From contig NZ_OZ156465.1 of NCBI RefSeq assembly GCF_964212655.1, positions 3,224,001-3,288,000 of the forward strand: 64,000 nucleotides of DNA, read 5' to 3'. Shown here piece by piece: positions 22,512 to 24,038 of this stretch. This stretch comes from Candidatus Thiodiazotropha sp. LNASS1 (GTDB lineage: Bacteria > Pseudomonadota > Gammaproteobacteria > Chromatiales > Chromatiaceae). The stretch's first letter is position 1. Each line of letters opens with the position of its first letter. The notes beneath the pieces are model-generated. The model worked only from the letters and a program-made list of their open reading frames with translations, was not told the DNA's origin and made no database searches. The position numbers and the translations under genes were made by a program.

Positions 22512-22658
22512 TTCTGTATTGGCTGGGGATGGAGGATTATTCGGCCCGTTGGGCCTCACCCCTACGGGGCCAGCTTGTGCTGTTCGTCTTCACGTTGCTC
22601 AGACGTCGAACCTCTTATCGGTTCTAATCCTCCATCCGGGCAGCTTTGTAGTGACATT

Positions 22659-22694: not shown

Positions 22695-22768
22695 TGGCTG
22701 GGGATGGAGGATTCGAACCTCCACATACGGAGTCAGAGTCCGGTGTCCTGCCGTTAGACGAATCCCCA
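22695..22768 (-). tRNA. tRNA-Gln (anticodon CTG)
   Basis: A complete 74-base cloverleaf including the encoded CCA. Acceptor arm TGGGGAT pairs with ATCCCCA; the T arm is GGAGG-TTCGAAT-CCTCC; the anticodon loop is CTCTGAC, giving anticodon CTG that reads CAG glutamine codons. The sequence closely parallels E. coli tRNA-Gln. The outermost anticodon-stem pair is a C/T mismatch. It lies 24 bases after rpsI on the same strand and ends at a clear terminator, so it could be carried on the rplM-rpsI transcript. Confidence 0.95.
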
Positions 22769-22792: not shown

Positions 22793-23182
22793 TTAGCGTT
22801 TGGAGTATTGAGGACGCTTGCGGGCCTTGTGCAGACCGACCTTCTTACGTTCCACGGCGCGGGCGTCGCGGGTCAGGAAGCCGGCTCTGCGCAGAGTGCC
22901 GTGCAGGGACTCGTCGTAGGCGTCCAGGGCGCGCGAGATGCCGTGGCGAATGGCGCCTGCCTGGCCGGTGGTGCCGCCGCCGTTGACCGTCACTTTGATA
23001 TCGACCTTGTCACGGGTTTCGGTGGCATCCAGTGGTTGGCGAACCACCATGCGGGCTGTCTCCCGGCCGAAGTACTCGTCAAGGGGACGGTTGTTGACCA
23101 CGATATTGCCGCTGCCTGCGGTCAGGAAGACGCGGGCGGTTGAACTTTTACGGCGTCCTGTGGTGATATGCTTGTCTGCCAT
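22793..23182 (-). CDS. rpsI: 30S ribosomal protein S9
   Basis: Small-subunit protein of 129 residues whose basic tail reaches the P-site tRNA. The start [19 protein letters not shown], the centre [19 protein letters not shown] and the terminal [11 protein letters not shown] are characteristic. It follows rplM by 23 bases on the same strand, the conserved rplM-rpsI operon. Confidence 0.97.
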
Positions 23183-23683: not shown

Positions 23684-23712
23684 ATATTACATGATCCAGG
23701 AATGGGAGACAA
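23684..23712 (-). promoter_or_regulatory. Possible rplM promoter
   Basis: On the minus strand TTGTCT and TAATAT are separated by exactly 17 bases, each with four of six consensus matches. The position 50 bases before the start codon and after the upstream terminator supports it as the operon's own promoter. Moderate match only. Confidence 0.4.
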
Positions 23713-23781: not shown

Positions 23782-23812
23782 AAAAAAAAGCGCGACAGGG
23801 GGATGTCGCGCT
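23782..23812 (-). terminator. Strong terminator of the candidate sRNA
   Basis: Nine perfect base pairs (AGCGCGACA with TGTCGCGCT), a six-base loop and eight T on the minus strand. The adjacent protein genes do not need it: rplM starts downstream of it and the antiporter gene is on the other strand. Confidence 0.85.
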
Positions 23813-23864
23813 GAATCTATATTTACCACCAAAGGAGGAATACTGACGCTCAATGCATCAGTAT
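23782..23864 (-). ncRNA. Candidate small RNA with own promoter and terminator
   Basis: About 83 bases on the minus strand. A consensus-like promoter ends seven bases before the predicted first base. The RNA would start with a hairpin ATACTGA/TCAGTAT (loop of 11), continue with TCCTCCTTTGG, which is complementary to Shine-Dalgarno sequences, then a short A/T-rich stretch, and end with the stem AGCGCGACA/TGTCGCGCT and eight T. No reading frame is plausible. The layout is that of a trans-acting sRNA. Alternatively it is a prematurely terminated leader of rplM, 148 bases downstream, although rplM seems to have a separate promoter. Not assigned to a known family. Confidence 0.6.
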
Positions 23865-23870
23865 GTATGA

Positions 23871-23899
23871 ATTATCTAATATACTAAGATTCTTGTCAA
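23871..23899 (-). promoter_or_regulatory. Sigma-70 promoter of the candidate sRNA
   Basis: On the minus strand TTGACA (perfect) and GATAAT (five of six) lie 17 bases apart, the best housekeeping promoter I found in the window. Initiation would be expected near 23864. Confidence 0.7.
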
Positions 23900-24038
23900 G
23901 CCAATCGCTGTGTCTTTCTGTTATTATCTTTTCCCTCAGCTCCCCAGTAGCCGATCAATAGCCAGCTAATGACAGTCAAGAGATACATTCATTCAGCCCC
24001 TGGCTTTTGTATCATATTGAATATTAAATAAATATTTT

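Follow-up and report, generated by a model that had tools for sequence, protein, structure and literature searches.

Is the promoter and terminator pair found upstream of rplM in Candidatus Thiodiazotropha sp. LNASS1 a small RNA gene in its own right, or the leader of the ribosomal protein genes that follow? The pair lies on the minus strand of the window analyzed here, a stretch of 64,000 nucleotides (bases 3,224,001–3,288,000) from a genome assembled as one contig of 4.75 Mb. A preliminary description, made from the nucleotide sequence alone, proposed an undescribed gene for a C-rich, anti-Shine-Dalgarno small RNA. Family conservation, the promoter and the terminator make an independent gene of this type the best reading, and the comparisons given below render it likely that the RNA is independently transcribed and acts in trans. 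The unit is confirmed, and it does not stand alone: what the window carries is a copy from an old and large family, with a paralogue at queA.

Predicted transcription unit and the genes downstream

The sRNA promoter consists of TTGACA (positions 23894–23899, minus strand) and GATAAT (23871–23876, minus), 17 bases apart, and shows 11 of 12 consensus matches. A small RNA of 83 nt is predicted at positions 23782–23864 (minus), with the start placed at an A 7 nt past the −10 hexamer and the end at a U run; this segment is conserved. The 5′ end folds as a stem loop of 10 pairs, ATACTGATGC/GCGTCAGTAT (23840–23864, minus). It is followed by the anti-Shine-Dalgarno word UCCUCCUUUGGUGG (23826–23839, minus) and by an intrinsic terminator, detected by terminator scan, with a nine-pair stem loop (23789–23812, minus) and a run of eight T (23782–23789, minus). 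Promoter, hairpin, word and terminator are all present as the preliminary description gave them. The fold energy of positions 23782–23866 (85 nt) is −30.7 kcal/mol, compared with −15.0 ± 3.1 for 200 dinucleotide shuffles (z = −5.1), none of which is as low. Promoter and terminator scans by themselves prove little: 2 kb of sequence shows 2 promoter-like sites, with 1.5 in shuffles, and 3 terminator-like sites, with 2.1 in shuffles. The unit is placed above chance because it is conserved among relatives.

A coding role for the 83 nt RNA was rejected by inspection, as the four start-like codons open no useful frame. A reading of the RNA as a CsrA sponge was likewise dismissed on inspection of the sequence.

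A BLASTN search with a 141-base region gives matches in 26 of 56 genomes, the own genome counted. Of the 21 genus genomes, the own one counted, 19 have the copy adjoining rplM, a placement checked in the rplM neighborhood. In these 19 loci the mean pairwise column identity is 0.79 for the promoter, 0.77 for the 5′ hairpin, 0.99 for the word and 0.83 for the terminator. The spacer 3′ of the terminator falls to 0.23, and the final 110 bases before rplM rise again to a mean of 0.68.

These last bases contain a promoter-like element of rplM, TTGTCT-17-TAATAT (23684–23712, minus). The preliminary description had suggested that rplM (ribosomal protein L13; 23206–23634, minus), which is followed by rpsI (ribosomal protein S9; 22793–23182, minus), might have a promoter of its own; a conserved element is indeed there, though with only 8 of 12 consensus matches. 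By 10-base windows, identity is 0.79 at the TTGTCT −35, drops to 0.43 over the spacer and reaches 1.0 and 0.91 at the TAATAT −10; the windows from there to the rplM start give 0.95, 0.59, 0.88 and 0.95. Two conservation islands with an unconserved spacer between them is the pattern of two putative transcription units. Sites with at least 8 of 12 matches occur in the gap between RNA and rplM in 15 of 18 genus loci (29% of shuffles), and none of the 18 reaches 9 of 12. On the 5′ side of the RNA, sites with at least 9 of 12 matches are found in 18 of 18 genus loci (23% of shuffles), 17 of 23 loci of the class sample (10%) and 29 of 44 named loci (15%).

The low score of the rplM element favors the leader alternative raised in the preliminary description. 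Here the unit would serve rplM-rpsI in cis, as a leader or attenuator: transcripts would start at the sRNA promoter, mostly terminate, and read through when a signal permits. The conservation of that same element, past a spacer of such low identity, argues against it. The positions of the copies, which bear on the leader from both sides, are given in the next section.

Other elements are found near the unit. A conserved box, GATAATAACAGAAAG, lies upstream of the sRNA −35 at positions 23914–23928 (minus), with GATAATAGCAGAAAG in several relatives; it is a possible activator site or second promoter. On the 3′ side of rpsI, an RtT RNA (22520–22649) and a tRNA gene (22698–22768), both on the minus strand, score above the Rfam cut-offs.

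Paralogue, structure and spread of the family

A second copy, carrying the common word and terminator, is present in 19 of the 21 genus genomes (BLASTN, own included). This paralogue lies tail to tail with queA and therefore is not a queA leader. In the queA-side copy a palindrome, TTAGGG-4-CCCTAA, is conserved just 5′ of the −35 in five loci (L021 and L029–L032) and is one base off in L002; it is possibly the binding site of a regulator.

Conservation of the hairpins in relatives had been named beforehand as a check on the unit. In 14 genus sequences (MAFFT alignment A2), 100% of the terminator cells are paired and three of the nine pairs are changed on both sides, while 81.4% of cells are paired in the 5′ hairpin. 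Among 72 distinct class-wide sequences two-sided changes are seen in nine of nine terminator pairs, in an alignment fitted to the covariance model described below and thus biased towards the structure. The covariation score for the given structure is matched by none of 500 shuffles.

Most aligned relatives also contain CUCCUCCAUCCUCCUUUGGUGG or a near form, which can fold as CCAUC-CUCCUUU-GGUGG. This second hairpin is compatible with 96% of cells in the 72-sequence alignment, where none of its pairs changes on both sides and its covariation does not exceed that of shuffles. Among the copies that of the window stands out as atypical: it is without the CUCCUCCA half present in most aligned relatives, and thus the second hairpin is lost too.

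Wider searches used a covariance model of the core and terminator (R1), built from 23 sequences that were BLAST matches also containing TCCTCCTTTGG. Because of this preselection, scores on training sequences are not independent, among them the 76.8 bits of the window sRNA, from which R1 was partly built; the invariance of the word in the 23 sequences of alignment A4 is in part a selection effect for the same reason. The E-values of R1 are approximate. Of the 369 class genomes, 190 match at E ≤ 0.05, with about 18 chance matches expected over that number of genomes, and the figure at E ≤ 1e-7 is therefore preferred: strong relatives in 99 of the 369 class genomes sampled, own included. The alignment of relatives draws on 77 hand-chosen sources, with repeats of one locus omitted, and three of its 80 matches (L131:2473, L136:234 and L279) look like non-members or relics.

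An exact 22 nt scan of a collection of species genomes gives at least 118 stretches; loci named in this way require an exact match and are not a census. Among the matches listed are Thiocapsa, Allochromatium, Thiocystis, Halochromatium, Thioalkalivibrio, Ectothiorhodospira, Thiothrix, Thiomargarita and Sedimenticola, many of which are sulfur oxidizers, and further Arenicella, Acidiferrobacteraceae and one member of the Gallionellaceae. Many carriers are uncultured; Thiocapsa roseopersicina and Sedimenticola hydrogenitrophicus, among the matches listed, are cultured ones. In a draw from the phylum, 16 of 299 genomes match at E ≤ 0.001. Only four, own included, reach 44 bits or more, all of the same class, and the sole match outside the class consists of linker and terminator. 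Species-rich families are probably without the RNA, given so few strong copies in the phylum draw.

That the unit is an inert relic or a chance pairing of promoter and terminator is hardly conceivable. Losses do occur within the genus: in G017 the CCTCC word is gone from a degenerate copy adjoining rplM, with the queA-side copy retained, and G006 gives no BLASTN match to the rplM-side copy. Yet the near-invariant word, the compensatory terminator changes and the class-wide spread already contradict a relic.

The placement of the copies bears directly on the leader alternative. Among 120 exact copies listed, 46 precede rplM in the same orientation, at 84–548 nt (median 173.5), and the RNA likewise closely precedes rplM, in the same orientation, in 23 of the 27 loci retrieved from the class sample (L093–L119, its highest-scoring). 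The position is thus old, and it is common to distant families. Such deep synteny with rplM is more than an independent gene acting in trans would need, and it counts against that reading. A cis-acting leader, on the other hand, would always be situated upstream of rplM and co-transcribed with it. Instead, 30 of the 120 listed copies face queA tail to tail (median 30.5 nt) and 34 are elsewhere; the remainder are cut by the locus end (7) or lie more than 700 nt from rplM (3). The terminator is present in 116 of the 120, which also argues against a leader. An independent trans-acting RNA fits better, because rplM has a separate promoter-like element past an unconserved spacer and because many copies are found away from rplM. 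The leader alternative is weakened on both counts; it is kept as an improbable one.

Several arrangements in other genera are of note. In Thioalkalivibrio (L157, L189, L199, L222, L232 and L265) a copy is found 125–376 nt upstream of a sensor-kinase-like gene, followed in several records by a response-regulator-like gene (both named by eye). Tandem arrays of two or three RNA copies are seen at L202 5782–6024 (by position the same as G317:C3), G336:C107 and G296:C3.

Comparison with known anti-Shine-Dalgarno RNAs

At gathering scores, Rfam shows no family over the window unit, and in 20 loci with relatives it marks only tRNAs and nothing over the RNA; this agrees with the preliminary description, which recognized no family. 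Below threshold, three models rank alike for the window copy: RF02278 (Betaproteobacteria_toxic_sRNA) with 27.1 bits (E = 0.065; gathering score 50), ncS54 (RF02871, Burkholderia) with 26.2 bits (E = 0.023; gathering score 43) and ncS025 (RF02869, Burkholderia) with 27.5 bits (E = 0.22; gathering score 46). The best sub-threshold family for the queA copy is RF02278, with 37.5 bits against the required 50. NmsRb (RF02877) gives 22.1 bits for the queA copy, with a gathering score of 52, and no match to the window copy at E ≤ 10.

Across the 369 class genomes RF02278 also marks many R1 loci (e.g. G168:C1:370125, G089:C34:2017 and G180:C140), and its gathering score is passed in two of these genomes and in none of 14 control genomes. 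In turn, the two loci that pass the RF02278 cut-off score 23.0 bits (L120, E = 0.002) and 32.6 bits (L121, E = 8e-6) with R1, which suggests a relation, though not a clean one.

RF02278 includes the Burkholderia 'double-hairpin RNAs' ncS03/05/27/62 and bdhR1, and displays CUCCUCC, a CU-rich hairpin loop and an intrinsic terminator, as the queA copy does. Kimelman 2012 is reportedly the original toxic-sRNA paper. The window copy differs from RF02278. It has lost the CU-rich hairpin with the CUCCUCC-type loop, being without the CUCCUCCA half and the first hairpin of the model, and it has a 5′ hairpin that lies outside the model as well as its position at rplM. The RNA is kept out of RF02278 because two features of that family were looked for and not found. 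The Burkholderia RNAs occur in several copies per genome and have CU-rich words complementary to ribosome-binding sites (PMC5688073).

S17 of Bordetella pertussis (PMC11722255) has a single-stranded CU-rich site, a CU-rich loop and a terminator, depends on Hfq and represses at ribosome-binding sites; it is cut by RNase E from a 190 nt precursor to 67 nt and is encoded near coq7. In contrast, the window promoter would give the 83 nt RNA directly, and the window gene lies at rplM; the comparison is one of layout. NmsRA and NmsRB of Neisseria meningitidis are sibling copies with three stem loops. Their anti-Shine-Dalgarno words are the UC-rich SL2 loop and the UC-rich single-stranded stretch that separates SL1 from SL2, and they repress by covering ribosome-binding sites, with enzymes of the TCA cycle as published targets (PMC5362039).

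One layout is common to the window RNA family, RF02278 including S17, and NmsR. The window sRNA is probably related to this group and probably works as S17 and NmsR do. Among the matches listed in the open-access literature, no gammaproteobacterial description of the RNA was found; the work cited is betaproteobacterial only.

On this comparative evidence the unit is a small RNA gene, a member of a wide family for which no Rfam model reaches its cut-off, with a predicted mechanism of a kind already known. New here are the extent of the family, its anchoring at rplM, the queA paralogue, the truncated form in the window and the fccA candidate. The family would represent a large unlisted post-transcriptional regulator, with a central word barely changed across distant families, and would link the anti-Shine-Dalgarno sRNAs of beta- and gammaproteobacteria.

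Predicted action and the fccA candidate

The sequence features of the Hfq-dependent anti-Shine-Dalgarno class are present: the RNA has its own promoter, the word, and an A/U-rich stretch before a terminator with a U run, and the genome has an Hfq gene (102.4 bits; cut-off 61.7). The sigma-70-type promoter and intrinsic terminator would yield the 83 nt RNA, in which the weakly folded word resembles the anti-Shine-Dalgarno 3′ tail of 16S rRNA. Together with Hfq, which it is predicted to bind, the RNA may pair with ribosome-binding sites whose match spans the word plus a few neighboring bases. Such pairing would block initiation and lower the chosen messages.

Potential sites are few. In the own genome AAAGGAGG is found 4–10 nt from an ATG only 18 times (pattern AAAGGAGGN{4,10}ATG; 17 distinct sites), and the reversed control gives 8. 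The 13 nt complement CCACCAAAGGAGG shows no enrichment in the own genome, with 92 sites at up to 2 mismatches and 153 for the reversed control, which speaks against the proposed action; among the first 30 of the 92 sites, read as loci, none falls at a gene start with 0 or 1 mismatch.

Among the 18, fccA was seen to have the best extended pairing with the window RNA; the choice was made post hoc. By inspection UUUAAUACCAAAGGAGG pairs with CCUCCUUUGGUGGUAAA at fccA over 16 of 17 positions, with one G-U, and the predicted duplex reaches past the Shine-Dalgarno core. With the window word the fccA leader duplex has −24.7 kcal/mol, compared with a mean of −11.3 ± 3.3 and a best value of −19.3 for 54 crude gene starts of the window; with the queA-side seed it has −23.4, equaled or beaten by one of the 54. 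The identity of FccA is given by PDB 1fcd_C (E = 3.3e-56), and the gene that follows is fccB (PDB 1fcd_A, E = 1.4e-173).

The site is conserved in the genus. The pattern CCAAAGGAGGN{4,10}ATG occurs one to three times per genus genome, and fccA is the sole start common to 22 of 22. In all 22 the fccA ribosome-binding site carries CCAAAGGAGG, a perfect 10 nt complement, with coordinates confirmed for 21 genomes and G680 scored from the pattern alone; CCAAAGGAGGTAACATG is common to all 21 genus orthologs read. G017 keeps the fccA site despite its degenerate rplM-side copy, and there the queA-side copy remains. Outside the genus the 10-mer is kept in only four of 25 FccA-like starts read (G023, G029, G034 and G068), G160 keeps AAAGGAGG only, and the other 20 have neither; an FccA-like start could not be read in five further non-genus loci or in four paralogues from the genus. 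Of 44 hand-chosen genomes with strong copies, 18 show an FccA-like protein and 26 have no match. No coevolution of sRNA linker and fccA leader is seen, since own pairs (−22.2) are hardly better than mixed pairs (−21.6). A strong fccA Shine-Dalgarno sequence may also be conserved for its own sake, which counts against the target reading. The fccA-fccB pair, encoding flavocytochrome c sulfide dehydrogenase, is named as a possible target, tentatively.

Another account of the word is a sponge or decoy, in which it would compete with 16S rRNA for Shine-Dalgarno sequences, or soak up sRNAs or a protein, without message-specific targets. Such a role would suit a word that resembles the 16S 3′ tail and that is far more constrained than the rest of the RNA. 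A third RNA-like element of the own genome with nearly the same word (L268, G000:C1:4595128–4595186, minus strand) points the same way. The small number of AAAGGAGG-ATG sites speaks against a sponge, as does the extension of the predicted fccA duplex beyond the Shine-Dalgarno core. The relatives S17 and NmsR, moreover, have specific targets (PMC11722255, PMC5362039). A sponge is accordingly held to be highly improbable, and message-specific repression in trans is the reading followed here.

If fccA is a target, the sRNA would set the level of FccAB, the sulfide-oxidizing enzyme that feeds the symbiosis, and fccAB offers a concrete, testable target for the regulation of sulfide oxidation. The broader proposal is of a class-wide, Rfam-unlisted sRNA family next to rplM-rpsI that would link the supply of ribosomes to a set of messages with matching Shine-Dalgarno sequences and would also set FccAB in the chemosynthetic symbionts of clams. 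In this combined form it is doubtful.

Two further kinds of element were observed. The third RNA-like element consists of CTCCTCCATCCTCCTTTGGTATA and a terminator (31.2 bits), shows no clear promoter at L268 or at its counterparts in G015 and G006 (L272 and L285), and has genes judged by eye to be purL-like and malQ-like on the other strand. A CU-rich hairpin with an intrinsic terminator is also found after an apparent short-chain dehydrogenase gene at L267, L270, L271 and L275 (fully read in L267 only); these hairpins look like an sRNA derived from a 3′UTR.
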